Shown: piece after piece, positions 9,425 to 44,674 of the stretch | Layout: every line of letters starts with the position of its first letter | Numbering within the stretch: the first letter of the stretch is position 1 | From: Pseudomonadota bacterium | Lineage (GTDB): Bacteria > Pseudomonadota > Gammaproteobacteria > Burkholderiales > Burkholderiaceae_C | Direction of reading: 5' to 3' | Length of the DNA: 50,886 nt | NCBI GenBank assembly: GCA_021846025.1 | Contig: JAJZDV010000007.1 | Location: 1 to 50,886 of the forward strand | The notes under the pieces: generated by a model | Database searches by the model: none | Told to the model about the DNA's origin: nothing | What the model saw: only the letters and a program-made list of their open reading frames with translations | Position numbers and translations under genes: made by a program

Positions 9425-10156
9425 TCAGCTTGGATTCAGCATGGATGGAGGGAGTCGAATGGCGCCGGCATCGTCGCCGCGCAGCTTGAAACCTGGCCGC
9501 TGCAGACCCTGGATTCGCTGGCTCAAGGCGCTGCGATTCAGGCTCGCTGGATGCAGCCGTGTTTGCCCGGGCAAGCGGCAGTCTTGCACCATCCATTGGT
9601 GCACGCCGAGGTCGGCCAGCATCGTGCCCAGCGACAACAGTTCGGCTTCGCTGAAGAGTCCCGCATGCCAGGTCGTGCGGCATTCGAAGGGCACTCCCGA
9701 AGCCACAAGATGATCCAGGGACGACCTGGCGCGGCGGCCGCTGCCCGGGGTGCCGGTGATGGTGTCGTAGAGACTCCACGGAGCCTTCACATCGAACCCC
9801 ACCCAATCGATCAGAGGGAGCAGCGTTGCGAGGCGCCGGGGATACATGCCGGCCGTGTGCAGCGCAACCTCGAAGCCCATGTCGCGCACCTGCTGCATGG
9901 CCTCGGCCAGTCCGGCCTGCAGTGTGGGCTCGCCGCCGGAAAACACCACGCCGCTCAGCAAGCCACGTCGGCGTTCCAGGAAATCGAGCACCGACGGCCA
10001 GGTCTGGCCCACGGGAACCTTGGCCTCGAGCAGGTGCGGGTTGTGGCAGTATCCGCAACGCCAGGGGCACCCCTGGCAGAAGACCACGGCAGCCAGCTTG
10101 CCGGGGAAATCAAGGCTGGTCAGGGGCGTGATCCCGCCCACACGCAAGGTGTTCAT
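9425..10156 (-). CDS. nrdG: anaerobic ribonucleotide reductase activating protein (radical SAM)
   Basis: NrdG uses a 4Fe-4S cluster and S-adenosylmethionine to create the glycyl radical on class III ribonucleotide reductase. The protein has 243 residues, the longer NrdG type. The radical SAM CxxxCxxC motif is at Cys30, Cys34 and Cys37 (CPWRCGYCHNP), preceded by the family segment TSLDFPGKLAAVVF and followed by SGGEPTLQ, which contacts SAM. It starts 13 bp after the small glycyl-radical gene and ends 8 bp before ubiU, so all are probably on one transcript. The target glycine is carried by the separate small protein upstream. Confidence 0.92.
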   Translation of the reverse strand: MNTLRVGGITPLTSLDFPGKLAAVVFCQGCPWRCGYCHNPHLLEAKVPVGQTWPSVLDFLERRRGLLSGVVFSGGEPTLQAGLAEAMQQVRDMGFEVALHTAGMYPRRLATLLPLIDWVGFDVKAPWSLYDTITGTPGSGRRARSSLDHLVASGVPFECRTTWHAGLFSEAELLSLGTMLADLGVHQWMVQDCRLPGQTRLHPASLNRSALSQRIQGLQRPGFKLRGDDAGAIRLPPSMLNPS

Positions 10157-10169
10157 GCGTCGGAGCGCT

Positions 10170-10364
10170 TCAGGCGCCGGGCATGCCTGGCCGCTCGGCG
10201 AAAAATCGCCGCTCCAGATGCTCGCCCTGCTTGCCGATGTTGAAGCTTGACACGGGCCGGTGGTAGCCCATGACGCGGGTCCAGACCTCGCAGGGCTGGC
10301 GCTCGTCGTCGAGCAGTCGTGGCGGCATCAGGTTGGAGGCGATGGGATGGTCGGGCTGAGACAA
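10170..10364 (-). CDS. nrdD: stand-alone glycyl-radical domain of class III ribonucleotide reductase (split NrdD)
   Basis: This 64-residue protein is the C-terminal piece normally fused to NrdD. The segment CEVWTRVMGYHRPVSSFN carries the glycyl-radical site (Gly33 in RVMGY), followed by the usual GKQGEHLERR tail. The start codon is TTG at 10364, with GGAGA six bases upstream; a later ATG at 10328 has no ribosome-binding site. It is in the same frame as the large NrdD gene, separated from that gene's UGA stop by 17 sense codons. It could therefore be a separate protein that docks on NrdD, as the glycyl-radical spare part GrcA (YfiD) does with pyruvate formate-lyase, or the product of readthrough. 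The good ribosome-binding site favours a separate protein. Confidence 0.82.
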   Translation of the reverse strand: MSQPDHPIASNLMPPRLLDDERQPCEVWTRVMGYHRPVSSFNIGKQGEHLERRFFAERPGMPGA

Positions 10365-10415
10365 GGTGGTTCTCCAGAAGGGTTGATGTGAGCGTGAAGA
10401 CCCTGGTGGGCGTTG

Positions 10416-12446
10416 TCAGGCGGCAAGCAGGTTCTGTTTGCGCGCGAGAATTTCCGCATCGCACTTGGGGCAGAAAGGGTGCTCGCCGGACAGATACCCG
10501 TGCTTGGGGCAGATCGAAAATGTGGGCGTGACGGTGATGTAGGGCAGGCGAAAGCGCGTCAGCGCGCGGCGCACCAACGCTTTGCATGCCGCGCCGCTGG
10601 ACAGTTGTTCGCGCATGTAGAGATGGAGCACGGTGCCCCCGGTGTACCTCGACTGCAAGGGTTCCTGACGTTCGAGCGCCTCGAACGGATCGTCCGTGAA
10701 GCCGACAGGCAATTGCGACGAATTCGTGTAGTAAGGCCGTTCCGCCGTGCCGGCCTGGAGGATGTTCGGATAGCGTTTGCGATCTTCTTTGGCGAAGCGG
10801 TAGGTGGTGCCCTCAGCGGGCGTGGCTTCGAGGTTGTAGAGATGCCCGGTTTCTTCCTGAAAGACCACGATCCGGCTTCGGACGTGGTCGAGGAGGCGCA
10901 CGGCAAAGGCCTGGCCCCAGGGCGTGGTGATGTCCTGCGTGCCAGCGGTGAAGTTGCGGATCAATTCGTTGATGCCGTTGACCCCCAGCGTCGAAAAATG
11001 GTTGCGCAGGGTGCCGAGGTAGCGCTTGGTGTAGGGGAACAGGCCCTGGTCCATGAGACGCTGGATGACCTTGCGCTTGATCTCGAGGCTTTGCTTGCCC
11101 ATCTCCAGCAGCACGTCCAGCCGGTCGAGCAAACCCGTCTCGTCACCGCGGTGGAGATACCCGAGTCGAGCGCAATTGATCGTGACCACACCGACCGATC
11201 CCGTCTGCTCGGCCGAGCCAAACAGACCATTGCCGCGCTTGAGGAGTTCGCGCAGATCGAGCTGTAAACGGCAGCACATGGACCGCACCATGTGGGGAGT
11301 GAGGTCGGAGTTGATGAAGTTCTGGAAGTAGGGCAGCCCATACTTGGCCGTCATCTCGAACAGCCGCTGGGCATTCTCGGATTCCCACGGAAAATCGGCG
11401 GTGATGTTGTAGGTCGGGATCGGAAAGGTGAACACGCGCCCCTTGGCATCACCGGCCGTCATGACATCGATGTAGGCGCGGTTGATCAGATCCATCTCGA
11501 CCTGCAGTTCGCCGTAGGTGAAGGGCATCTCCTCGCCTCCGATCAGGGGGTTCTGGCCACGCAAGTCCTCGGGGCAAGTCCAATCGAACGTGAGATTCGT
11601 GAAGGGTGTCTGCGTTCCCCAGCGGGAGGGAACGTTGAGGTTGTAGATCAGCTCCTGGATGCACTGCCGCACGGCCGGATACGTCATCTGGTCGCGACGC
11701 ACGAAGGGCGCCATGTAGGTGTCGAACGATGAGAACGCCTGGGCGCCGGCCCATTCGTTTTGCAGCGTTCCGAGAAAATTGACGATTTGCCCAACGGCCG
11801 ATGTCATGTGTCGCGGGGGGCCGGCCTCGACCTTCCCAGGAACCCCGTTGAGCCCCTCGTTCAGCAAGGTGCGCAGTGACCATCCGGCGCAATAGCCCGA
11901 CAACATGTCGAGGTCGTGAATGTGGAGATCGGCGTTGCGGTGCGCCTCGCCGATCTCGGCGGGATAGACGTGCGACAGCCAATAGTTGGCGGTGACCTTG
12001 CCCGCCACGTTCAGGATCAGCCCCCCCAGGGAGTAGCCCTGGTTGGCGTTGGCATTGACACGCCAGTCGGCTCGGCTGAGGTACTCGTTCACCGAACTCT
12101 CCACGTCCACCAGGGCCTTGCAGTCTTGCCGCAGCTTGGCATGCTGCTCGCGATAAACGATGTAGGCACGCGCACTCTGCACCTCATGGGCGGCGATGAG
12201 GGTGTGCTCGACGACATCCTGGATCTGCTCGACGGTTGGCGCCTGATTGCCGAAGCGGTGGATGAGGACTTGGATGGCCTCGTCGCCCAGGGCCTGGGCC
12301 TCATCGGACCCGAACTCGCCGGTGGCTTCGCCGGCCCGGCGCAGGGCCGAAACAATCTTCTGCGGGTTGAAGCTCACGCGAACGCCATTGCGTTTGACGA
12401 CCTCGCGGGGAAGGCTTGGATGGTGCTCCGTTGCTTGATGGTTCAT
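10416..12446 (-). CDS. nrdD: class III anaerobic ribonucleoside-triphosphate reductase, large part without glycyl-radical site
   Basis: NrdD reduces ribonucleotides to deoxyribonucleotides under anaerobiosis. The protein has 676 residues. Residues about 12-105 form the ATP-cone regulatory domain (VVKRNGVRVSFNPQKIVSALRRAG). The catalytic barrel follows, with SMCCRLQLDLRELLKRGNG, which should include the thiyl-radical cysteine, and GVVTINCARLGYL. The C-terminus has the zinc ribbon CPKHGYLSGEHPFCPKC and then stops at LARKQNLLAA, before the RVxGY glycyl-radical motif. That motif is supplied by the next small gene. The start ATG at 12446 has AGGAGA six bases upstream. NrdR boxes and an FNR-like palindrome precede it. 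It heads the operon nrdD, small nrdD, nrdG, ubiU, ubiV, ubiT. Confidence 0.92.
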   Translation of the reverse strand: MNHQATEHHPSLPREVVKRNGVRVSFNPQKIVSALRRAGEATGEFGSDEAQALGDEAIQVLIHRFGNQAPTVEQIQDVVEHTLIAAHEVQSARAYIVYREQHAKLRQDCKALVDVESSVNEYLSRADWRVNANANQGYSLGGLILNVAGKVTANYWLSHVYPAEIGEAHRNADLHIHDLDMLSGYCAGWSLRTLLNEGLNGVPGKVEAGPPRHMTSAVGQIVNFLGTLQNEWAGAQAFSSFDTYMAPFVRRDQMTYPAVRQCIQELIYNLNVPSRWGTQTPFTNLTFDWTCPEDLRGQNPLIGGEEMPFTYGELQVEMDLINRAYIDVMTAGDAKGRVFTFPIPTYNITADFPWESENAQRLFEMTAKYGLPYFQNFINSDLTPHMVRSMCCRLQLDLRELLKRGNGLFGSAEQTGSVGVVTINCARLGYLHRGDETGLLDRLDVLLEMGKQSLEIKRKVIQRLMDQGLFPYTKRYLGTLRNHFSTLGVNGINELIRNFTAGTQDITTPWGQAFAVRLLDHVRSRIVVFQEETGHLYNLEATPAEGTTYRFAKEDRKRYPNILQAGTAERPYYTNSSQLPVGFTDDPFEALERQEPLQSRYTGGTVLHLYMREQLSSGAACKALVRRALTRFRLPYITVTPTFSICPKHGYLSGEHPFCPKCDAEILARKQNLLAA

Positions 12447-13161: not shown

Positions 13162-13845
13162 TCAACCCTCGAATTTCGGAAACAGCACGTTGTTTTCAGC
13201 ATGGAGATGCTCCATGAGGTCGTCGGTGAATTTGTGAAGTCCTGCGTGGAGTGCGTGCCATGTGTTGCATGCCCCGGCAGGGAGTTCCAGATCATGGGTG
13301 AGCATGTGCAGGCGCTGAAGCATCCGACCATGATCCTCGTGTTCCTCACGCATGCGTGAAAGGGGCGGCGCCAGTAACGCGCCGGGGTTTGCGCGCATCA
13401 AGGGGAACAGAATGGTCTCCTCCTTGCTCATGTGCGCCTGGAGTTCGACGAGCATGTCCTCCAGTAGCGCAGCCAAGCCGGCCGGAACATCCGGATGGTC
13501 GCGGTGCCGCTGTTCGACCTTCGTGGCGAGCACGATCAACTCGGGCAGTTCCTGGCGATGCACGTCGTGGTAACGGCTGACGATGAACCCGATCAACTCC
13601 GCTGGGTTGTCGGGCAAGGCCAACGGCGCCGCGGCATCGAGCTGTTGCAATTCGCGCTCGATCTGACGGGAACTGATGCCCCGTTTCTGCGCGGCCTCTT
13701 CAAGGGTGGCATCGCCGCCGCAGCAAAAGTCCAGTCGATAGCGGCGAAAGACGGCGGTCGCGCCTGGCAAGCCGCTTGCCAGTTCTGCCAAGCGGCGCGA
13801 ATTCAGTCCGGCCGCGTTTGCTTCGTTCCGTGTCGGAGCTTGCAT
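13162..13845 (-). CDS. ytfE: iron-sulfur cluster repair di-iron protein (YtfE/RIC/ScdA)
   Basis: YtfE is a di-iron protein that restores iron-sulfur clusters after nitric oxide or oxidative damage. The 227-residue protein has the N-terminal ScdA/DUF542 helix motif with LDFCCGGDATLEEAA (residues about 38-52), followed by a hemerythrin-like domain. Its iron ligands are visible as SRYHDVHRQELPEL, MSKEETILFP, REEHEDHGRML and HLHAENNVLFP. The ATG at 13845 has AAGGA about 8 bases upstream and is preferred over a TTG at 13881. It is divergent from an NsrR-type regulator whose known targets include ytfE, so control by nitric oxide is very likely. Confidence 0.93.
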   Translation of the reverse strand: MQAPTRNEANAAGLNSRRLAELASGLPGATAVFRRYRLDFCCGGDATLEEAAQKRGISSRQIERELQQLDAAAPLALPDNPAELIGFIVSRYHDVHRQELPELIVLATKVEQRHRDHPDVPAGLAALLEDMLVELQAHMSKEETILFPLMRANPGALLAPPLSRMREEHEDHGRMLQRLHMLTHDLELPAGACNTWHALHAGLHKFTDDLMEHLHAENNVLFPKFEG

Positions 13846-13944
13846 GGGATCGTCCTTCGTGGTGGGTTTTGACGATAACAAGTAACATGAATACCACTAT
13901 AGGATGCCTTTGTGGCAAAAACAATACCTCTTTGGCGCTTGCTC

Positions 13945-14385
13945 ATGAAACTCACCGCTTTCTCCGATTTCGGGCTACGCGCCCTGCTCGTTCTGGCCAG
14001 CAGCGATCGGCCGAACTGGCCAAGCGCCGAGCTGGCGGCCAAGCTCGATGTGTCGCGAGATCACTTGATCAAGGTGCTGCAGCGCCTGGCTGCCGGAGGC
14101 TATGTGCAAACCATGCGTGGGGCGGGTGGCGGAGTGCGGCTGCTCGTGCAGCCAACGGCCATCCGGCTTGGTGATGTGCTGACCTGGCTGGAAGACGAGC
14201 AGGCACTGGTCGAGTGCTTTCGCGAAGATGGCGGGCACTGCGTGCTCACAGGCTTTTGTGCCTTGCGCCCCAGGCTGGACCGCGCACGCCACGCGTTTTA
14301 CGCAGAGATGAACACCAGCACGCTGGCCGATTGCATCAATCCGGCACTGCGCCGATTTGTGCAAAGCAACGACACCGTGGCCTGA
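13945..14385 (+). CDS. nsrR: Rrf2-family nitric-oxide-sensing repressor NsrR
   Basis: NsrR carries an iron-sulfur cluster that reacts with nitric oxide, releasing the DNA of detoxification and repair genes. The 146-residue protein begins with the Rrf2 winged helix MKLTAFSDFGLRALLVL and the recognition region AAKLDVSRDHLIKVLQRLAAGGYV. Three cluster cysteines, Cys91, Cys99 and Cys105, lie in the NsrR-typical place after ALVE, close to Cys91/96/102 of E. coli NsrR. The ATG at 13945 fits the family start; the frame is open to 13912 but that part is not conserved. The 99 bp between nsrR and ytfE should hold its operator, but I could not fit a full NsrR consensus there. Confidence 0.88.
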   Translation: MKLTAFSDFGLRALLVLASSDRPNWPSAELAAKLDVSRDHLIKVLQRLAAGGYVQTMRGAGGGVRLLVQPTAIRLGDVLTWLEDEQALVECFREDGGHCVLTGFCALRPRLDRARHAFYAEMNTSTLADCINPALRRFVQSNDTVA

Positions 14386-14411
14386 CCGACCGGTGCGCCA
14401 GCGCGTGCTGT

Positions 14412-14816
14412 TCAGACTTGGATGTCGACGAAAAGCCCTTTTTCTTCGCGCTCGAAATGATGCTCAAGCAGGTGCTGCAATGGCAGGGTGGCATCGAGCA
14501 GGGCCAACCGTTCCTCGCCATCGCTGAGTCGGGAAGGCAAGGTCGAGAGTGCATGGCGCCATTCGGTGAGCATGGCTGAAAGCTTGCCATGCTCGGCAAG
14601 ATAGACCTTCGCCGCCCATCGCGCCGAGGCAGGAAGCCGCGGAATCAGGGCCCCTTCCTCATGAGCGATGTGGGCTTGTTGCAGTTCATGCAAAGCCCCG
14701 AGCGACTCTCGTGCTTGGGCGATGTCGCCAAGCAGCAGCGCCAGGCGTGCCCGCCGCATGATGCCGAGCATCTGCTCATGATCCGCAACCAGATCCTCAT
14801 GCAAGGTCGTTGACAT
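14412..14816 (-). CDS. hemerythrin-domain (HHE) protein
   Basis: This 134-residue all-helical protein probably binds a di-iron centre. The ligand pattern of hemerythrin-like HHE domains is visible: VADHEQML, QQAHIAHEEGALIPRL and LLEHHFEREEKGLF. Unlike YtfE next door, it lacks the ScdA N-terminal domain, so oxygen or nitric oxide binding or sensing is more likely than cluster repair. The ATG at 14816 has GGAG seven bases upstream; a longer frame to 14924 adds an unconserved N-terminus. It is convergent with nsrR, 26 bp apart, and belongs to the same small nitrosative-stress cluster. Confidence 0.8.
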   Translation of the reverse strand: MSTTLHEDLVADHEQMLGIMRRARLALLLGDIAQARESLGALHELQQAHIAHEEGALIPRLPASARWAAKVYLAEHGKLSAMLTEWRHALSTLPSRLSDGEERLALLDATLPLQHLLEHHFEREEKGLFVDIQV

Positions 14817-14998
14817 CTCAAGCTCCAATCGGTGGCGGCGTAACGTCAGATCCGGCAGTTTGAACGGGGCATGAACCGGGGATGAGGGTGCATTGAGGCC
14901 ACTTTGGTTTTCCTTGGAGATCATCGTGACAACTTGCCTGGCTTGGCTCCGTCATTGGAATCATTGTGCACGGATCGGGCACGAAATTTATATGGTTG

Positions 14999-15868
14999 TT
15001 AATGCGCGAATTCAGAGCGTTGCATTTTAACCAGCGTTTCCAGCACTCGCAGCTCGTTCTCGGTGAGACACATGGCAGCGGCAACCCAATCATTGACAAC
15101 ACAATTCAATTCTTCATAATTGAGCGCCGTCAATCTGGCTTTGGCATTCTGAAGGGCTTGCCTGGCTTTTCGGCGTTTACTGTGCTCCACAATGAATTCC
15201 CCGATCGCGCTTTCGCCGGCCCCAGATGGGCAAACAAGGTCAATGATGCCGATTTCCTCCAATTCATGTGCGGAATAGATCTTGCCATTGCGCATGATTT
15301 TTTCTGCCTCATGCACGCCAACTCGACGTGCCAGCAAGCTCATGCCTCCGGTGCAGGGGAACAGGCCGAAGAGAATTTCCGGGAAACCGAATTCTGCATG
15401 TTCTTCTGCGACAATATAATCCGCTGACAAAGCCGTTTCAAATCCACCACCCAAGGCGCGCCCTTGGATTAAGGCTATGGTGGTACTCCGCTGAGTGATC
15501 GCGGTTGCCCATTGATACATCATGTCGAGGCATTGCACGGAATAGATGCGGAGAGAGTCTGAATCACCTCGCCGGATGCACTCTAAAAAATGATTCAGAT
15601 CACCCCCAACGTTGAAATACTCAGGATGCCTAGACCGCAGGACAGCATAATGAATTGGATTTTCACGATCATCGTTGTTCCACACGCTATTATTGATGCT
15701 GATGTAATTAATTAAACCTTGGAGCGACTGGAGCAGCAGTTGGGAAAAATTCTGCGGTCGGTTTCTCTGGATCGCCATACTGATCCACAACACATTCAGT
15801 GCAGGATCAAAGTCTGTCTCGACAAGAGGCTTAGCGAGTGTGACGACATTTTCGTCCGTACTTAACAT
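14999..15868 (-). CDS. rpfF: DSF synthase of the crotonase family (RpfF-like)
   Basis: RpfF makes the diffusible signal factor, a cis-2-unsaturated fatty acid, by dehydrating a 3-hydroxyacyl-ACP and then hydrolysing the thioester. The 289-residue protein matches the Xanthomonas RpfF length and pattern. The oxyanion region FNVGGDLNHF precedes ALGGGFETALSADY and FGFPEILFGLFPCTGGMSLLARR. The two catalytic glutamates, Glu144 and Glu164, are exactly 20 residues apart, as Glu141 and Glu161 are in RpfF. It follows the ketosynthase by 8 bp with no clear ribosome-binding site, so translational coupling is likely. Base composition is lower in GC than flanking housekeeping genes. A generic enoyl-CoA hydratase is the alternative, but the rpfG/rpfC neighbours argue against it. 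Confidence 0.88.
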   Translation of the reverse strand: MLSTDENVVTLAKPLVETDFDPALNVLWISMAIQRNRPQNFSQLLLQSLQGLINYISINNSVWNNDDRENPIHYAVLRSRHPEYFNVGGDLNHFLECIRRGDSDSLRIYSVQCLDMMYQWATAITQRSTTIALIQGRALGGGFETALSADYIVAEEHAEFGFPEILFGLFPCTGGMSLLARRVGVHEAEKIMRNGKIYSAHELEEIGIIDLVCPSGAGESAIGEFIVEHSKRRKARQALQNAKARLTALNYEELNCVVNDWVAAAMCLTENELRVLETLVKMQRSEFAH

Positions 15869-15876
15869 GGTTCAAT

Positions 15877-17106
15877 TCAGTCGAATGTGGATGACCGCAC
15901 GATCAGCGCTGCATTGGTTCCGCCGAAGCCTGCAGATAGACTCATCGCATGGCGTACAGGACGATCGTGTATTGTCTCCGTCACGTGCTGAATGCCTCTG
16001 CACTCCGGATCTATGTCGGTAAGGTGCGCAGTAGCAGGGATGAACGAGTGGCGCAAGGCTAGGACACAAACCAGCAGTTCCATGGCACTGGCAGCGCCGA
16101 GCATGTGGGCATGCAAGGCCTTCGTCGCGCTCACTGGAACTGTCTGGGCTGCGCTGCCAAGGACCTCCTTCAAGGCGGCTACTTCAATGGGATCACCGCC
16201 TCGCGTTGCGGTTGCGTGGGCATTGATATAGTCAATCTCCGAGGCATTGATGCCAGCAATCCGAAGGGCCGAGCGCATGGCAGCGATCTGCCCACGCTGG
16301 TGGGGTGAACCGATGTGATGGGCGTCCGAGGCGATCCCCCAGCCAGCGACGAATGCATGGATTGTGGCTTGACGTCGCTCGGCATGTTCACGCGATTCCA
16401 ACACGAAAAACACGCTTCCTTCCCCCAGGACCAAACCGGTGCGCGAGCGCGAAAATGGTCGACAACTCCGGGATGGAACATCATCAACCTCCGCTAAAGC
16501 GCGAAGCCCGTCCCATGCCCCAAGAAATACAGGTGTCAGCGCCGCTTCCGCTCCACCGGCAATGGCAATGTCAATTTCTCCACATCTAATTTGTCTACAG
16601 GCATCCGCAATTGCAGACCCTGAGGATGAGCAAGCCGATGTATGACTTGCTGTGGGCCCATACACCTGATGGCGGATAGAAATCTGCGCGGCTCCAGCGT
16701 TAGCCATGCATCCCATGATCACATAGGGCTTGGCGGTTTTCTTTTCGCCAGTGTAAAACTGACGTGTCCACTCCCATTCAGTTGCTCCACCGCCACGGAC
16801 CGTCCCAAAAAAGACTCCGGCACGTTCGCCAAATGAGGAATAGTTCACGATTCCTGCGTTTTCCGTGGCTTGCTGGGCTGCCAGGATCGCCAACTGGGTC
16901 GTACGATCAAGAAAAGGCAATTCGACGCGCGTGAAGGCGTCATGGAACAGAGCGTCAACGGAGGCCATCGGAAATGACCTCGACAAGGCTTGAGATTCAA
17001 ACGCCCTGACACCTGAGCGCGAATTGAGCAGACTGTCCAAGACAGTCGCCTCCGTCATCCCGATAGGGGAGATGACGCCGATACCTGTGATGGCGATATC
17101 AATCAT
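15877..17106 (-). CDS. beta-ketoacyl-ACP synthase (FabF-like) of the DSF locus
   Basis: This condensing enzyme of 409 residues extends acyl-ACP chains by two carbons. The full catalytic set is intact: Cys159 in HTSACSSSGSA, a His in NAHATATRGGD, then Lys and His in SATKALHAHMLGAASAMEL, and the GFGG gate loop in LSAGFGGTNAALIV. The ATG at 17106 (MIDIAITGIGVISPIG) is the family start; an ATG at 17151 adds unconserved residues. Its start overlaps the acyl carrier protein gene by 8 bp and rpfF follows by 8 bp. This tight packing suggests it elongates the chain that RpfF turns into the signal. It differs from a housekeeping FabF by its unusual loop residues and its place outside a fab cluster. Confidence 0.85.
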   Translation of the reverse strand: MIDIAITGIGVISPIGMTEATVLDSLLNSRSGVRAFESQALSRSFPMASVDALFHDAFTRVELPFLDRTTQLAILAAQQATENAGIVNYSSFGERAGVFFGTVRGGGATEWEWTRQFYTGEKKTAKPYVIMGCMANAGAAQISIRHQVYGPTASHTSACSSSGSAIADACRQIRCGEIDIAIAGGAEAALTPVFLGAWDGLRALAEVDDVPSRSCRPFSRSRTGLVLGEGSVFFVLESREHAERRQATIHAFVAGWGIASDAHHIGSPHQRGQIAAMRSALRIAGINASEIDYINAHATATRGGDPIEVAALKEVLGSAAQTVPVSATKALHAHMLGAASAMELLVCVLALRHSFIPATAHLTDIDPECRGIQHVTETIHDRPVRHAMSLSAGFGGTNAALIVRSSTFD

Positions 17107-17365
17107 GACCGCTCGCTTGCATGTTTTTAATAACCATATCAGCGACATCACGTAATGTTGGGTTCTTGGGTAGGTCGATATTTTTTATATTTTGACCAGT
17201 GATATCTTCCAGGCTCATGATGACATCGAGAATTCCCATGGAATCCAAACCCAGATTTCCAATCGGCATGCTGTCTGGCTTTCCGGATATATCGATATCG
17301 AAGGTCGATAGAACTATGTTATTGATTTCTTTGATGATTTTAAATTCATCCCAAATTTGATTCAT
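17099..17365 (-). CDS. dedicated acyl carrier protein of the DSF locus
   Basis: This 88-residue acyl carrier protein has the phosphopantetheine attachment serine at Ser42 within NLGLDSMGILDVIMSLED, the expected four-helix pattern, and an acidic character. Its sequence differs from a housekeeping AcpP, which has GADSLDTVE. It is the first gene of the leftward operon ACP, ketosynthase, RpfF; its stop overlaps the ketosynthase ATG. There is no strong ribosome-binding site before the ATG at 17365. Codons are strikingly AT-rich compared with genes outside the rpf block. Role inferred from position: it carries the acyl chain from the ketosynthase to RpfF. Confidence 0.85.
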   Translation of the reverse strand: MNQIWDEFKIIKEINNIVLSTFDIDISGKPDSMPIGNLGLDSMGILDVIMSLEDITGQNIKNIDLPKNPTLRDVADMVIKNMQASGHD

Positions 17366-17604
17366 AATTTTTTACACGTTGAGTTTATTGAGCCTGCATC
17401 ATTGCGTACCAATCGTTGGAATCCATTTTACTGTGACTTATTGCGCCTCATTGAGAAATTTTGACATGTTGCCTTGATGACTCGATGCCGTTTGTAAAGC
17501 GTTGATCTGCCAAGCAGTCAATCTGGCGAACGTTGATAAATAAGCTCCTCATGATTTAACACAGCTAAGTTGCTGAAAATACTTAATTTAATATATTCTA
17601 AAAA
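17366..17604. promoter_or_regulatory. AT-rich divergent promoter region of the rpf locus
   Basis: These 239 bp separate the leftward ACP-ketosynthase-rpfF operon from the rightward rpfG-rpfC pair. The DNA is clearly richer in A and T than anything else in the window, with runs such as TTAATTTAATATATTC. It must hold both promoters. I could not single out a -35/-10 pair with confidence because many AT hexamers fit. Confidence 0.5.
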
Positions 17605-18672
17605 TTGAAGACAAGTCACGTTAATGATTGGGCTTTTGCGCCAGCGATAATAATAGTCGATGATCAGGCGACGAATCGTCATTTATTGTCTGAAATTTCT
17701 TATAATATTTGCCCGCAGGCAAATATTATGTCATTCGAAGATCCTTTGGTTGCACTTTCGTATGCCAATAGCCACCCTGTTGACCTTGTTTTAACTGATT
17801 ATCGCATGCCTCGAATGAACGGGGTGATGCTGGTCAAAGCACTGAGATCGCTGGAACATCTGGCCGAGCCTCCCATCATCTGCATCACGGCGGTCGACGA
17901 TCTGGCCGTGCGGTACGACGCCTTGGATGCTGGCGCCAACGACTATCTTAGCCACCCCTTGGACTACCGCGAATGCGCTGCCAGATGTCGCAACCTCCTC
18001 AACCTGCGCCGATTCCAGCTGGCTACTCTTCGTCATGCTGACGAGTTGGAACGTCGGGTCGAGCAGGTCATCCAAGATCTGCAAAAAGAAAAAATGGAAA
18101 CGCTGTTTCGTCTTGCCAAGGTGGCTGAGCAACGTGACACCGACACCGGAGCGCACCTCAGCCGCATCGGCCGCTACTCGGCCTTACTGTCACGCAATTT
18201 AGGTTGCAGCGAAACATTTACGGCTGTTTTGGAAATGGCAGCGCCGCTCCATGACATCGGGAAAGTCGCTATTCCCGATCATATTTTGCTGGCTAGACGC
18301 AGCTTGACGTCGGAGGAGTGGACCGTCATGAAGACCCACACGGTGATTGGGCACGCCATGCTCTCCGGCGGACACACAGAGCACATGAAAATCGCCGCTG
18401 AAATCGCGCGTTCGCATCATGAGAAATTCGATGGCAGCGGGTATCCGGATGGTCTCTCGGGACAAAACATTCCACTGTCGGCGCGAATCCTCGCAGTGGT
18501 TGATGTTTACGACGCACTGACTTCCAGGAGACCATATAAAGAGGCATGGACACATGAGAAGGCACAGGATTATTTGCGTCAACATGCTGGATTACACATG
18601 GACCCCGAATTGGTCAAGGTCTTTTTGGCGGACTTGGCAGGCTTGACTGCGATCAGCACAAGCCTGCCCTAA
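17605..18672 (+). CDS. rpfG: RpfG-like response regulator with HD-GYP cyclic-di-GMP phosphodiesterase domain
   Basis: RpfG links DSF perception to cyclic-di-GMP breakdown. The 355-residue protein has a receiver domain (residues about 13-130; acidic pair Asp19/Asp20, phosphoacceptor Asp65 in LTDYRMPRMNG). A linker and an HD-GYP domain follow: HDIGK at 216-220, HHEKFDGSGYP at 271-281 and VDVYDALTSRRPYK. The HD and GYP signatures are intact. The usual receiver lysine (TKP) is replaced by histidine (LSHPLD), which may change phosphorylation-driven switching. An in-frame stop lies at 17599-17601 and no ATG exists nearby, so the likely start is TTG at 17605, without a clear ribosome-binding site. 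The kinase gene follows 71 bp downstream. Confidence 0.88.
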   Translation: MKTSHVNDWAFAPAIIIVDDQATNRHLLSEISYNICPQANIMSFEDPLVALSYANSHPVDLVLTDYRMPRMNGVMLVKALRSLEHLAEPPIICITAVDDLAVRYDALDAGANDYLSHPLDYRECAARCRNLLNLRRFQLATLRHADELERRVEQVIQDLQKEKMETLFRLAKVAEQRDTDTGAHLSRIGRYSALLSRNLGCSETFTAVLEMAAPLHDIGKVAIPDHILLARRSLTSEEWTVMKTHTVIGHAMLSGGHTEHMKIAAEIARSHHEKFDGSGYPDGLSGQNIPLSARILAVVDVYDALTSRRPYKEAWTHEKAQDYLRQHAGLHMDPELVKVFLADLAGLTAISTSLP

Positions 18673-18743
18673 AGCCACGCGGATCACGGACCCCTTGGAC
18701 CCAAGCCCGTACTGGAATCGACGCTGAATAAAGGAAATGCATC

Positions 18744-20900
18744 ATGGAAAAGCCGAGCATTTTTGATTTCACAACCGCCCTAAGAGGGCAAGCACAATTA
18801 CGGGTGTGGTTGGCGAGCGTATGCATCGCAATTTGGTTGTGTGTGATTTTTGTACTGAAATCGCCTCAATTGTATGTCTTTCTAGTGGCATCTGTGCATC
18901 TGACTTATGCAGTTGCACTCTATGTCATGACGCATCGAAGCCGCAATATTTGGCCGAAATGGGTGGGATATCTGACGGCGGTCCTTGATCCGTTGATCCT
19001 GACCGCTTGGGTCATTGTGATGGGGCAAACAGCAGTACTTGTTGTCCCCTTATTTATCTTCACGTCTATTGGCTACGGTATGCGTACGGGAAACAAGGCA
19101 ATCATGCGCACTGCGCAGGGAGTTGCTATCGCTGGACTTGCAATAGCACCACTGCTGGCATCATACTGGCATGATCATATGCTGTTTTGGGTATCCAGTT
19201 TGATTTCTATTCTGATGATTCCTGGCTATGTTGCTGTTTTGATGGACAAATTAAATCACGCCATTATTTTTGCTGAACAAGAGAGTCGCGCAAAGTCCGA
19301 TTTACTGGCAAGAGTCAGCCACGAATTGCGTACTCCATTGGGTGGAATTTCCAATGCCGCGGAGCTTTTGCAAGCGGAGGCAAACACAGCGAGGCCTAAA
19401 CAATTGGCTGCCACAATACTGACACTCAGCGGCCACTTGCTTGCTGATATCAATGATCTGCTGGACCAAAGCAAACTGACGCTGACCAAGATACAACTGA
19501 AGGCAAATCCTATTAATATTGCAGATCAAGTGGAAGTGGTCCGGGCGGCGGTGGAAACAAATGCCAGAAAGAAGGGGATCGGTTTCTCGAGTGTGATCGA
19601 TCCGAGAATTGTCGATCAAGTCGTCGGTGACGCGCATTGGCTGACGCGTCTATTGATTAATCTGGTCGGCAACTCCGTAAAATTTACCGAATATGGATCC
19701 GTGGCATTGAATATTTCCCTCTTGCGGGAATCGCCATCGGATTATCTCCTGCGGTTTAGCATAAAAGACTCGGGTGTTGGAATACCTCAAGAATTCCAGG
19801 ACAAGATTTTCGACCCGTTTGTGCAACTCAATACAAAAAATCTGCAGCATCCAGAGGGGACAGGCCTTGGATTGGCCATCAGCAGGCAAGTCGTCGAGGT
19901 GATGGGCGGGACTTTGCGTGTCAGCAGCGATGTCGGCGTAGGCAGCACATTTTGGTTCGATCTGCGCCTGCCTCGCTTTCTTGTGGGGCAGCATGGATTC
20001 GAAACCGCGAGCGATCTTGGTGATTCGGATCGGCACCATGTGTTCGAGCGGCGACGCATTCTGATCGTTGATGACAATGAGACCAATCGCTATCTGTTGC
20101 AGGAAATTTTACAGAAAGAGGGGCACTCCGTCATTTTGGCCGATAGCGGGGAACAAGCGCTTGATATCCTGGGAAGTACAGACCAGTTCGATTTGATTTT
20201 GCTTGACTATAATCTTGGTGACATAGACGGCAGCACGGTGTTGCAAACCTATCGGTTCGGCTGTCGCAATCCTGTCCCTGCCTATTTTTTGACGGCCGAC
20301 GCGTCTGCATTAACCGCCTCAAGGTTGAAAAATACTGGCGCAGTTGGAGTCCTCACAAAACCAGTTCTGGCCCAGGAACTGCGTGATGCGATCCATCAAT
20401 CCTGCTTTTCGATTGATGCGCGGCGGACATTGTCCTCTGCGCCGATTCTTTCTGAGCGCAGGGACGTGTCACCGGAATCCGCTGAGTTGCAACATTTGCG
20501 CCCTGTTCCTACGGTTTATATCGATATGAATGTCATCGATAAACTCAAGCAAATCGGCACAAGGCGTGACTTTATCAAGGAATTGCTGGAGCGCGCCAGC
20601 ACGGACATCGAGCGCAATGCCACGCGCATTCTCGACGCGTTGGACACGGGAAATCATAATGGCGTGTACGATGCCGCTCATGCGCTGAAGGGTGTTTGCA
20701 TGGAAACCGGTGCCATGCGTCTGATGAGTCTTGCAATCGGAATCATGCGTACGGATAGCGCAATTCTGACCGAACAGAAGCAAAGATTGGCGCAGAATTT
20801 GCAGGAATCGACGTCCAAAACCCGAGAGGCTCTGCGTGATGTGATTGCGGAAGCCAGGCAGGTCGATGCTCACGCCGACAAGAATGTCGATTACGGATGA
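18744..20900 (+). CDS. rpfC: RpfC-like hybrid sensor histidine kinase for DSF
   Basis: This 718-residue membrane kinase should sense the DSF signal and phosphorylate RpfG. Residues about 20-168 hold about five hydrophobic segments. The kinase core follows: His193 in SHELRTPLGGISNA, N-box NLVGNSVKFTE at 306-316, and G-boxes KDSGVGIP and GTGLGLAIS. A receiver domain spans about 437-552 (Asp488 in LILLDYNLGDIDG, Lys539 in TKP), and a C-terminal Hpt domain carries His646 in AAHALKGVCMETGA. This membrane-HK-REC-Hpt order is that of Xanthomonas RpfC. The ATG at 18744 has AGGA eight bases upstream. It is the last gene of the rpf block and shares its lower GC content. Confidence 0.9.
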   Translation: MEKPSIFDFTTALRGQAQLRVWLASVCIAIWLCVIFVLKSPQLYVFLVASVHLTYAVALYVMTHRSRNIWPKWVGYLTAVLDPLILTAWVIVMGQTAVLVVPLFIFTSIGYGMRTGNKAIMRTAQGVAIAGLAIAPLLASYWHDHMLFWVSSLISILMIPGYVAVLMDKLNHAIIFAEQESRAKSDLLARVSHELRTPLGGISNAAELLQAEANTARPKQLAATILTLSGHLLADINDLLDQSKLTLTKIQLKANPINIADQVEVVRAAVETNARKKGIGFSSVIDPRIVDQVVGDAHWLTRLLINLVGNSVKFTEYGSVALNISLLRESPSDYLLRFSIKDSGVGIPQEFQDKIFDPFVQLNTKNLQHPEGTGLGLAISRQVVEVMGGTLRVSSDVGVGSTFWFDLRLPRFLVGQHGFETASDLGDSDRHHVFERRRILIVDDNETNRYLLQEILQKEGHSVILADSGEQALDILGSTDQFDLILLDYNLGDIDGSTVLQTYRFGCRNPVPAYFLTADASALTASRLKNTGAVGVLTKPVLAQELRDAIHQSCFSIDARRTLSSAPILSERRDVSPESAELQHLRPVPTVYIDMNVIDKLKQIGTRRDFIKELLERASTDIERNATRILDALDTGNHNGVYDAAHALKGVCMETGAMRLMSLAIGIMRTDSAILTEQKQRLAQNLQESTSKTREALRDVIAEARQVDAHADKNVDYG

Positions 20901-42417: not shown

Positions 42418-43158
42418 ATGACCATGGCCAGCAATATTCTCGTTGTCGAAGATGAACCAGCCATTGCCGAACTGCTGGCGGTCAACCTGCGCCATGCCGG
42501 TCACTGCCCGATTCTGGCCGGCAGCGCCGAAGAGGCCCTGCGCCTGATTCGTGACATCCTGCCCGATGTCATGCTGATCGACTGGATGCTGCCCGGCATG
42601 TCCGGCCTGGCCCTGGCGCGCGAGCTACGCCAGGGCGCCCGCACGCGCAGCATCCCGCTCATCTTGCTGACCGCGCGCAGCGAAGAGGCCGACACCATTG
42701 CCGGCCTCGATGCCGGTGCCGACGACTACATCACCAAGCCGTTCTCCCCCAAGGAATTGCTGGCCCGCATCCGCTCGGTACTGCGCCGGCGCTCGCCCCA
42801 GCTCACCGACGAGCCGGTGCGTGCCGGTGGCCTGGCGATGGACCCGTCCACGCGCCGCGTCAGCTTCACCGGCGGCACAAGCGAGCAGGACTTGCGCCTG
42901 GGTCCGACCGAGTTCAAGCTGCTGCATTTCCTGATGACCCACCCCGAGCGTGTGCACAGCCGAGGCTCACTGCTCGACAAGGTGTGGGGCGACCATGTCT
43001 TCATCGAGGAGCGCACGGTGGACGTGCACATCAAACGCCTGCGTGAAGCCCTGGCCCCCGTGCACTGCGCCGAGCTGGTGGAGACCGTGCGCGGTGCCGG
43101 CTATCGCTTCACGCTGCGGCAAAATGCACCTGCGCCGCAGCTCGCGCCCGGGGCTTGA
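42418..43158 (+). CDS. phoB: phosphate regulon response regulator PhoB
   Basis: PhoB activates Pho-box promoters when phosphorylated by PhoR. The 246-residue protein has a receiver domain (Glu11-Asp12, phosphoacceptor Asp55 in LIDWMLPGMSG, Lys in ITKPF) and an OmpR-type winged helix (RLGPTEFKLLHFLMTHPERVHSR, then RTVDVHIKRLREAL and RGAGYRF). Two in-frame ATGs (42418 and 42424) are equally possible. The C-terminus has a short unconserved tail. It starts 2 bp after phoU and is followed by phoR after 142 bp. Confidence 0.96.
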   Translation: MTMASNILVVEDEPAIAELLAVNLRHAGHCPILAGSAEEALRLIRDILPDVMLIDWMLPGMSGLALARELRQGARTRSIPLILLTARSEEADTIAGLDAGADDYITKPFSPKELLARIRSVLRRRSPQLTDEPVRAGGLAMDPSTRRVSFTGGTSEQDLRLGPTEFKLLHFLMTHPERVHSRGSLLDKVWGDHVFIEERTVDVHIKRLREALAPVHCAELVETVRGAGYRFTLRQNAPAPQLAPGA

Positions 43159-43300
43159 AGCCGCCTTATCGGCCAGCGCCTGAGGTGCTGCTGCAGGTGC
43201 GCGCTGGCAGGCCGCTGCATGCATCCAGGCGACCCCGAGCCAAGTCCGCCACTCGCCTCGCAACTTCCCGCCGTTTGCTCCGCCACCCAGTCCAATCCTC

Positions 43301-44674
43301 ATGCGCGCCGTCGTCCTCCGTCTGATCGGTGTGATCGTCCTGATGCTGTTGAGCGCAGGTCTCAGCGGCTGGTGGTTCGGACCCTTGCCCGCCGCGCTGG
43401 TGGCGTGCGCGGTGGCGCTGGTGGTGATCGGCGCCGATACCGCCGCGCAGCTGCGGGTCCTGGCATGGTTGAAATGGCCGCGACATGACAACATTCCCGC
43501 AGCACGTGGTGTCTGGGCCGAGATGCTCTATCGCGCTGCGCGCCAGCTGCGCCTGTGGGAAACCCGCGTGGCGCGCGAGGAAGACAAACTCAAGCGCTTC
43601 ATCGAGGCGCTGCAGGCTTCGCCCAACGGCGTGATCCTGATGGACGCCAGTGACCAGATCGACTGGTGCAACGATACCGCGGCAGCGCATTTCGGGCTGG
43701 ACCCGAAACGCGATCTGCGCCAGCATGCCGTGCACCTGATCCGCAACCCCGAGTTCTTCGCCTACATGGGCGCCAAGCGCTTCGACGAGCCGCTGCTGAT
43801 GCGCCGCAACGGCAGCTACGGCCCCTTGCTGCTGAGCGTGCAGGTCATTCCTTACGGCGAGGGCGAGAAGCTGCTGCTGTCGCGCGATGTCACCCAGGTT
43901 GAGCGCACCGAAGCCATGCGGCGCGACTTCGTCGCCAATGTCTCGCACGAGATCAAGACACCGCTGACCGTCATCGCCGGTTTCGTCGAATCCCTGCGCA
44001 CCCTGGAATTTTCCATCGAGGAGCGCAACCACATTCTCGGGCTGATGCAGGAGCAGTCCGACCGCATGCGCCATCTGGTCGACGACTTGCTGACCCTGGC
44101 GCACCTGGAAGGCGACCCGCATCAACCGGCCGAGGAACGCATGGACATGCGGCAGATGGTCGAGGGACTGGCAGCCGACGCACGCGTGCTGTCGGCCGGG
44201 CGCCATCGCATCGAAGCCAGCGCTGACGCGGGTGGTTTGCGCGGCGCACGCACCGAACTCACCAGCGCATTCAGCAATCTGGTGAGCAATGCCGTGCGTT
44301 ACACCCCGCCAGGCGGTGAGGTGCGCATCACCTGGCGCGTGCTGCATCCGGATTACGGCGAGCCCTACGCCGAATTCTGCGTCAGCGACACAGGCATCGG
44401 CATTGCGCCGGAACACATCCCCCGCCTGACCGAGCGCTTCTACCGTGTGGACCGCGGGCGCTCGCGCGAATCCGGCGGCACCGGGCTGGGGCTGGCCATC
44501 GTCAAGCATGCACTGCTGCGGCACCAGTCGGAGTTGCGCATCAGCAGCCAACCCGGGTTGGGCAGCAGCTTCAGCGTGCGTTTTCCGCTGGCGCGGCTGG
44601 ATCTGGCCAAGCCGGATCAGGCCACCCAGGCGCCGGACACGCCTCAGGCCGACCGCGAGTCGATCAGCGCCTGA
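43301..44674 (+). CDS. phoR: phosphate regulon sensor histidine kinase PhoR
   Basis: PhoR phosphorylates PhoB under phosphate starvation. The 457-residue protein has two N-terminal transmembrane helices (about 5-25 and 28-48), a short charged linker, a PAS domain (about 97-200, ALQASPNGVILMDASDQIDWCN), the kinase His216 in NVSHEIKTPLTVIAGF and the ATPase domain (NLVSNAVRYTPPGG, SDTGIGI, GGTGLGLAIVKHAL). The last 31 bp overlap the 3' end of ppk on the other strand. The 142-bp gap before it holds no gene. Confidence 0.95.
   Translation: MRAVVLRLIGVIVLMLLSAGLSGWWFGPLPAALVACAVALVVIGADTAAQLRVLAWLKWPRHDNIPAARGVWAEMLYRAARQLRLWETRVAREEDKLKRFIEALQASPNGVILMDASDQIDWCNDTAAAHFGLDPKRDLRQHAVHLIRNPEFFAYMGAKRFDEPLLMRRNGSYGPLLLSVQVIPYGEGEKLLLSRDVTQVERTEAMRRDFVANVSHEIKTPLTVIAGFVESLRTLEFSIEERNHILGLMQEQSDRMRHLVDDLLTLAHLEGDPHQPAEERMDMRQMVEGLAADARVLSAGRHRIEASADAGGLRGARTELTSAFSNLVSNAVRYTPPGGEVRITWRVLHPDYGEPYAEFCVSDTGIGIAPEHIPRLTERFYRVDRGRSRESGGTGLGLAIVKHALLRHQSELRISSQPGLGSSFSVRFPLARLDLAKPDQATQAPDTPQADRESISA

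Follow-up and report, generated by a model that had tools for sequence, protein, structure and literature searches.

Housekeeping fatty acid synthesis is understood to be the source of signals of the diffusible signal factor (DSF) family, and the supply of substrate to set their mixture. Which role, then, do an acyl carrier protein (ACP) and a beta-ketoacyl-ACP synthase (ketosynthase, KS) play in an rpf locus, where DSF is made and sensed? The question is raised by a five-gene block at positions 14999-20900 of contig JAJZDV010000007.1 (assembly GCA_021846025.1) of a bacterium of the Burkholderiaceae_C, order Burkholderiales. The window, meaning the whole stretch of 50,886 nucleotides that was analysed, is an entire contig (C132) of a draft genome of 2.93 Mb in 203 contigs, which is 89.8% complete. 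Genes for an ACP, a KS and an RpfF-like protein are located on the reverse strand of the block, divergent from genes for an RpfG-like and an RpfC-like protein on the forward strand. The block is probably a DSF-type signalling locus with a dedicated ACP-KS acyl supply for RpfF (probability about 0.62, judged from sequence comparisons). This points to a signal assembled on a line of its own rather than simply taken from ordinary fatty acid synthesis.

The ACP gene (17099-17365, reverse strand, 88 amino acids, Pfam PF00550) encodes a GLDS motif with Ser42. It overlaps by 8 bp (17099-17106) with the gene of the KS, here called rpf-KS (15877-17106, reverse strand, 409 amino acids from an ATG start, PF00109 and PF02801), for which an alternative longer frame with a GTG start reaches 17151. 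After a spacing of 8 bp (15869-15876) follows the gene of the RpfF-like DSF synthase, a crotonase (14999-15868, reverse strand, 289 amino acids, PF00378 and PRK08788) whose nearest solved structure is RpfF. An intergenic region of 239 bp (17366-17604), presumed from its sequence to be a shared control region, separates the ACP gene from the divergent gene of an RpfG-like response regulator with an HD-GYP domain (17605-18672, forward strand, 355 amino acids, TTG start, Response_reg and HD_5). The gene of an RpfC-like hybrid sensor kinase is located downstream (18744-20900, forward strand, HisKA, HATPase_c and Response_reg). A preliminary description of this DNA had reported an ACP with Ser42, an intact KS and an RpfF-type crotonase packed in this manner and divergent from RpfG and RpfC; coordinates, Pfam matches and the Cys-His-His triad of the KS bear this out.

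The RpfF-like protein possesses Glu144, Glu164 and Trp261, corresponding to Glu141, Glu161 and Trp258 of Xanthomonas RpfF, and the equivalents of these residues are conserved in 92/93, 93/93 and 93/93 RpfF rows, respectively. The catalytic role of the glutamate pair (Glu141 and Glu161 in Xanthomonas) is described in PMC9864630 and PMC4958263. The best match among solved structures is RpfF (3m6m, E 3.8e-44), with crotonases other than RpfF at 1.9e-17 or weaker, and the broader crotonase model PRK08788 is passed (281 bits, cut-off 177). RpfG contains the motifs DLVLTDY, HDIGK and HHEKFDGSGYP, and combines a receiver with an HD-GYP domain. RpfC has the architecture of an Rpf sensor, including approximately 5-6 hydrophobic segments (simple hydropathy scan), HisKA (SHELRTPL), HATPase and receiver (REC) domains, and a histidine phosphotransfer (HPt) domain recognised by the motif HALKG only, with no Pfam match. 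Similar to the Rpf/DSF system of Xanthomonas (rpfB-rpfF, rpfC-rpfH-rpfG), the locus encodes an RpfF with both glutamates, a multi-segment RpfC hybrid kinase with REC and HPt motif, and an RpfG with HD-GYP. However, its synthase genes and rpfG-rpfC are divergently oriented, an ACP and a KS are additional, and no acyl-CoA-ligase-like gene is present within the five genes. One ligase-like homology was found several kb away in 3/26 stretches, using an Aas-like query and not Xanthomonas RpfB. For Xanthomonas RpfF, the general fatty acid pathway is named as the source of substrate in PMC5941067 and PMC5011732.

Are the KS and the ACP simply the housekeeping FabF and AcpP? This identity was rejected, given a separate acpP-FabF pair on its own contig (C23) of the same genome and the placement of the KS in the trees. 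Similar to FabF (KAS II), the window KS shows the fold family, the Cys-His-His triad and the GFGG loop. Nevertheless, it is only approximately 35% identical to the FabF of its own genome, which is encoded directly after acpP, stays below the cut-off of the FabF equivalog TIGR03150 (356.9 vs 493.75 bits) and differs from FabF in the five residues described below. In a KS tree of 48 rows, the 25 rpf-KS rows form a single clade with 100/100 support and a stem of 1.58 changes per column, apart from FabF; rpf-KS and FabFs as one clade were rejected by the approximately unbiased (AU) test (p 0.005). The tree was prepared from 57 rows, nine of which were dropped (five duplicates from overlapping loci, three near-copies belonging to a single genus of the order, and one fragment). 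Rows identical over 200 residues had been collapsed earlier, leaving G004 and G016 without a row, and the fragment G024:C224 was left out. The nearest KSs outside rpf loci are accessory KSs, several of them adjoining an ACP (L156-L159, L161). The own genome also encodes a second KS with an ACP on contig C120 (L104, 8795-14055), and this KS is 41-42% identical to that of the window. The preliminary description had proposed placing the KS in a tree against FabF, and the KS proved to be neither the sole genomic copy nor grouped with FabF. The ACP of the window reaches 26.8 bits as a PP-binding domain (PF00550 cut-off 20.8), versus 61.1 bits for the acpP product of C23. All 21 ACPs of the lineage that were read contain GLDS and the motif LP(K/R).P(T/S)L.DVA; in the ACP alignment, neither of the two AcpPs and none of the five class-level ACPs has the latter motif.

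Other KS and ACP genes of this genome were recorded alongside. The neighbours of the KS and ACP on C120 resemble, by eye and not by profile, a FAD monooxygenase, a methyltransferase and a type III polyketide synthase (PKS), and the clade of the C120 KS is also present in G011, G014, G019, G023 and G024 according to the KS tree. Several PP-binding domains are located in frames of 893-1689 residues on contigs C54 and C21, similar to non-ribosomal peptide synthetases or PKSs.

The KS has Cys, His and His at the positions of E. coli FabF, and this triad is intact in 25/25 rpf-KS rows. Residues were mapped via alignment and not via structure; a single-sequence structure prediction of the KS, with a mean pLDDT (predicted local distance difference test) of 30, was not used. 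A structural study places Ile108 and Phe202 as gates of the FabF acyl pocket (PMC7138838). The position of Ile108 is occupied by Arg in 25/25 rpf-KS rows and in 0/23 other KS rows, and that of Phe202 by Trp in 25/25 rpf-KS rows and also in 16/23 others. Furthermore, Trp115, Phe198 and Ala398 are constant in the 25 rpf-KS rows and occur in none of the other 23 rows, although one row has a gap at 398. At positions 108, 115, 198, 202 and 398, E. coli FabF has Ile, Glu, Gly, Phe and Phe, and rpf-KS has Arg, Trp, Phe, Trp and Ala. Arg108 and Trp202, together with the constant Trp115, Phe198 and Ala398, therefore argue for a substrate other than the ordinary long chain.

Does the KS go with RpfF in related genomes? 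The rpf-type KS was detected in 21 of 28 genus genomes (61-100% identical) and was absent from seven in the KS search. The RpfF search in 25 genus genomes gave 19 positive (48-100%) and six negative genomes, matching the KS state in 25/25. In the KS-positive genomes G041 and G043, RpfF is located beside the KS in the fetched stretches L102 and L103, the only stretches read for RpfF. RpfF is present in all 21 KS-positive genomes and in none of the six KS-less genomes searched, the seventh KS-less genome (G042) lying outside the RpfF search. Twenty-four stretches with RpfF (the window, L038-L057, L102, L103 and L112) contain 26 RpfF copies, 25 from the genus and one from a sister genus (L112, from G091). 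An rpf-KS is located upstream on the same strand for 26/26 copies, within 345 bp for 24 of them; RpfC intervenes between KS and RpfF in L051 and L112. A near relative, the sole one returned by a related-locus contig search, is JABEVE010000053.1 (L007), from a Burkholderiales metagenome-assembled genome, with an RpfF of 87% identity.

In some genomes the locus is duplicated or split. G012 and G013 (L055, L056) possess RpfG, ACP-KS-RpfF, RpfC and a second KS-RpfF in one locus. In G021 and G022 the loci are split (L040/L100, L041/L101), with RpfG and ACP-KS in one place, and RpfC and KS-RpfF in another. The KS is duplicated or split off together with RpfF and therefore moves and multiplies with it. 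Crude clustering of open reading frames (ORFs) revealed an HDOD-domain protein as the commonest extra neighbour (10 genus loci), and no tailoring family recurrent in most loci. The HDOD protein (L048, 3365-4381, and relatives) is encoded towards the side of the locus that carries RpfC and was tested with Pfam for L048 only. In L055 and L056 the two KS-RpfF pairs share one ACP and one RpfC, possibly serving two signals per locus.

How would a linked KS act on the signal? PMC4504480 describes dehydration of 3-hydroxyacyl-ACP by RpfF, with cleavage of the thioester, and a signal mix governed less by RpfF than by the supply of substrate. Cerulenin, which binds FabF/FabB, lowers DSF output according to PMC5011732. 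A KS linked to RpfF and paired with its own ACP would be the natural place to fix this supply. In the proposed pathway, the small ACP would be phosphopantetheinylated at Ser42, and the KS would load an acyl group and condense it with malonyl on a partner ACP, putatively the window ACP or AcpP. Housekeeping FabG would reduce the product to 3-hydroxyacyl-ACP. In the predicted enzymatic coupling, RpfF would dehydrate this to cis-2-enoyl-ACP and cleave the thioester, freeing the signal acid. The KS would determine the chain delivered to RpfF. The free acid would be read by RpfC, with the window RpfC as the putative sensor, and by RpfG, acting as a cyclic di-GMP phosphodiesterase. The 3-keto reduction, malonyl loading and ACP activation would come from shared enzymes, because none of the five genes performs these steps.

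At family level, RpfF was detected at E 1e-40 or better in 6/200 genomes, of a close type in G000, G023 and G091 (52-100%) and of a distant type in G048, G143 and G207 (36-40%); no KS or ACP was found in the stretches of the latter three, one of which is only 3.8 kb. The rpf-type KS was present in 6/399 family genomes, from 2/141 genera, and at order level in the own genome alone among 399, with the next best at 44-46%; both searches scored the best 4 candidates per genome. In L059 and L060, from other families of the order, an RpfF-like protein without KS is located beside MerR-PAS-GGDEF-like and fused acyltransferase/AMP-ligase-like proteins (by eye).

At class level, an RpfF-like protein was detected at 1e-35 in 65/369 genomes, own included, and the comparison covers 65 rpfF places outside the own genome, from 64 genomes, all of which were fetched. 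RpfC-like proteins (at least 80 bits) were present at 54 places, RpfG-like proteins (at least 200 bits) at 30, and both at 29. An ACP and a KS were found beside rpf genes at six places (L190, L192, L196, L209, L264 and L265), and an ACP without KS at three more (L216, L217 and L269), in stretches without an RpfC match. Neither was found at 56/65 places, an absence that is weak for short contigs (4/65 stretches are under 6 kb). All nine ACPs adjoin an rpf gene, at 20-541 bp or, for L196, as part of an ACP-KS-RpfF row with a spacing of 169 bp ahead of RpfF. No further ACP was detected at 12 bits in 810 kb of class stretches. From own-genome density, approximately 1.1 KSs and 1.1-2.8 ACPs would be expected, a rough figure, versus 6 KSs and 9 ACPs seen; of the two ACP densities used, '4 stand-alone' is our estimate. 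The ACP profile was built from an alignment with 5/9 class ACPs (L190, L192, L196, L209 and L217); plain tblastn found those five as well as L216, L265 and L269, and the L264 ACP was found by profile only.

The six places with ACP and KS differ in layout. L196 is the only one with the window order ACP-KS-RpfF, and a radical SAM gene (9828-11423) adjoins the ACP of this row. In L190 and L192, ACP-KS is located between RpfC and RpfG together with a CMAS-like methyltransferase. RpfF is divergent from ACP-KS in L209, and also in L264 and L265, where RpfC follows. A full-length KS of the L196 type was present in 4/258 class genomes, G889 (source of L196), G898, G1019 and G937, all of them RpfF-positive. 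In G898 and G1019 the KS is located beside RpfF, and in G937 the KS and an ACP are on a 4.1-kb contig, with RpfF near the end of a different contig; the remaining matches of this search are partial and FabF-like in match length. A KS of the L192 type above 45% was found only in G887 and G1055 among the 258 genomes. The preliminary description had proposed a genome search for ACP-KS-RpfF with rpf genes; an ACP-KS pair is indeed present in further rpf loci. It had allowed that the triple might be common; it is common within one genus and present in one sister genome, whereas in the class ACP and KS occur together at 6/65 places, with the gene order ACP-KS-RpfF only in L196. Two observations on these stretches are added. 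The CMAS-like S-adenosylmethionine (SAM) methyltransferase (L190, 12073-13143; L192, 12058-13140), located between KS and RpfG, is a possible maker of a methylated or cyclopropane DSF. The RpfF-like match of G1015 (L267, 6044-6822) is in two pieces, and this copy may be interrupted.

Was the KS recruited once or several times? The rpf-linked KSs form three clades, each with 100/100 support, with non-rpf KSs between them in both KS trees. The second tree contains 25 of the 48 rows of the first, four new gamma rows and 11 database matches. Joint clades were tested for groups chosen after inspection of the trees, with AU p 0.038 for the window type with four gamma rows and 0.143 with the L190/L192 type (first tree), and 0.068 with the L196 type (second tree). 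In the RpfF tree, which covers 60/65 class places, a minimum of four changes is required for the state 'KS present' (before L264 and L265 were added). Several separate recruitments are likely and are favoured over one by the trees, but the AU tests do not settle the number.

Several observations weigh against a dedicated supply of chains to RpfF. No ketoreductase, malonyl transferase or phosphopantetheinyl transferase was found by Pfam among the five genes. The preliminary description had proposed a private ACP and condensing enzyme; the association of KS and ACP with RpfF stands (same 21 genomes, 26/26 copies with KS, joint duplication), whereas a fully private line is unlikely, since the five genes lack a ketoreductase and a malonyl transferase and such steps would be shared. 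The preliminary description also predicted that the signal may differ from known DSFs in length or branching and may be insulated from bulk lipid synthesis. The co-occurrence of KS and RpfF (21/0/0/6, Fisher p 3e-6) comes from related genomes that are not independent. ACP-KS is located beside RpfG in stretches without RpfF in G021 and G022 (L100, L101), and G006 possesses RpfC and KS-RpfF with no ACP in a 12.9-kb stretch, the only one searched of a genome that is 82% complete. No KS was found at 59/65 class rpfF places. In G1055 the ACP is beside RpfF, but the KS is on a different contig, 19 kb of which contained neither an RpfF nor an RpfC match; this speaks against strict linkage. The RpfF-like protein misses the cut-off of the NCBIfam RpfF equivalog NF053515 (184 vs 550 bits); the same cut-off is missed by 6/6 other rpf-linked RpfF-like proteins (166-243 bits), a Xanthomonas control not being among those scanned. 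Finally, Arg108 and Phe198 are unlike an ordinary long-chain KS, so the chain may be something other than fatty acyl.

Some of these points would fit an ACP and KS that make another product, such as a small polyketide or lipid, as a co-regulated output of RpfC/RpfG, while RpfF uses housekeeping chains bound to AcpP. Besides the loci of G021 and G022, the accessory nature of the closest non-rpf KSs, several beside an ACP as on C120, favours this explanation, as do the CMAS-like methyltransferase at two gamma loci and the radical SAM gene at one. Nonetheless, the KS is present in exactly the RpfF-positive genus genomes among those checked and is duplicated with RpfF, and the commonest extra neighbour is the HDOD protein, no single tailoring family being shared by most loci; we consider another product unlikely. 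Still less probable is that the RpfF-like protein is a tailoring crotonase, dehydrating or isomerising a polyketide that the KS assembles and that stays bound to an ACP, with RpfC/RpfG sensing the product. In the RpfF tree, the RpfFs of this lineage sit on a long stem (1.31 changes per column), and both the missed NCBIfam cut-off and the unusual gate residues of the KS would agree with such a function. However, both catalytic glutamates and the pocket Trp are conserved, RpfF proteins are nearest among solved structures, RpfC/RpfG show the same linkage as in many class rpf loci that lack a KS, and the rpf-linked RpfF of L164, a locus without KS, misses the same cut-off. An ordinary second FabF/ACP pair that came to lie beside an rpf cluster by chance could be imagined in a genome with several KSs and ACP domains, where a pair can land anywhere. 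Such an arrangement is very unlikely, because the layout is kept across the genus; it is kept across two genera in all, the KS is a separate lineage with constant odd residues in 25/25 rows, and in the class a KS is found at 6/65 places versus roughly 1.1 expected, with 9/9 ACPs adjoining rpf genes.

The dedicated supply of RpfF, which we prefer over these explanations, was also compared with known gene clusters. HMG-synthase (HMGS) cassettes for beta-branching consist of ACP, KS, HMGS and two enoyl-CoA hydratases (ECH), and their KS is decarboxylating and lacks the Cys. The locus resembles them in its adjacent ACP, KS and crotonase, but no HMGS is present among the five genes, the KS retains its Cys, the crotonase is of RpfF type, and RpfC/RpfG are linked; such a cassette was rejected on the retained Cys and the missing HMGS. 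The dspI cluster of Pseudomonas aeruginosa is of a dehydrogenase and hydratase type and is not known as an ACP-KS cluster. Similar to the RpfF of the window, dspI is an RpfF homologue amid fatty acid metabolism genes, and its sensor is given as unknown, in PMC4504480. The preliminary description knew of no described rpf locus of this composition, and no ACP-KS-rpfF locus appeared among the matches listed in open-access full texts. RpfF, RpfC, RpfG, ACP and KS are each of known kinds; their combination and its recurrence is the new part.

If true, a chain-building enzyme reserved for the synthase would account for the way in which a lineage fixes its dialect; signal structure would be predictable from a linked gene, and the origin of signal specificity testable through one KS gene. 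That the arrangement recurs in separate lineages points to a route followed repeatedly, or to an old one retained by few. More speculatively, rpf loci in several lineages might be small biosynthetic clusters, with ACP-KS modules, some with CMAS-like or radical SAM enzymes, recruited repeatedly to make non-housekeeping chains for RpfF. The gate Arg of the window KS might then select an unusual acyl group (short, polar or charged), and the resulting class of signals might lie beyond the known DSFs and be private to its makers; we regard this extension as doubtful.

Outside the five genes, the window contains other genes with recognisable homologies. Hemerythrin-like genes flank an Rrf2-like regulator at 13162-14924, adjoining the rpf locus (by eye, except for a hemerythrin match at 14412-14924). 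Frames resembling an anaerobic ribonucleotide reductase and its activase are located at 9425-12446 (by eye). Additional receiver and histidine kinase homologies at 42436-44665 make up another two-component set of this contig.

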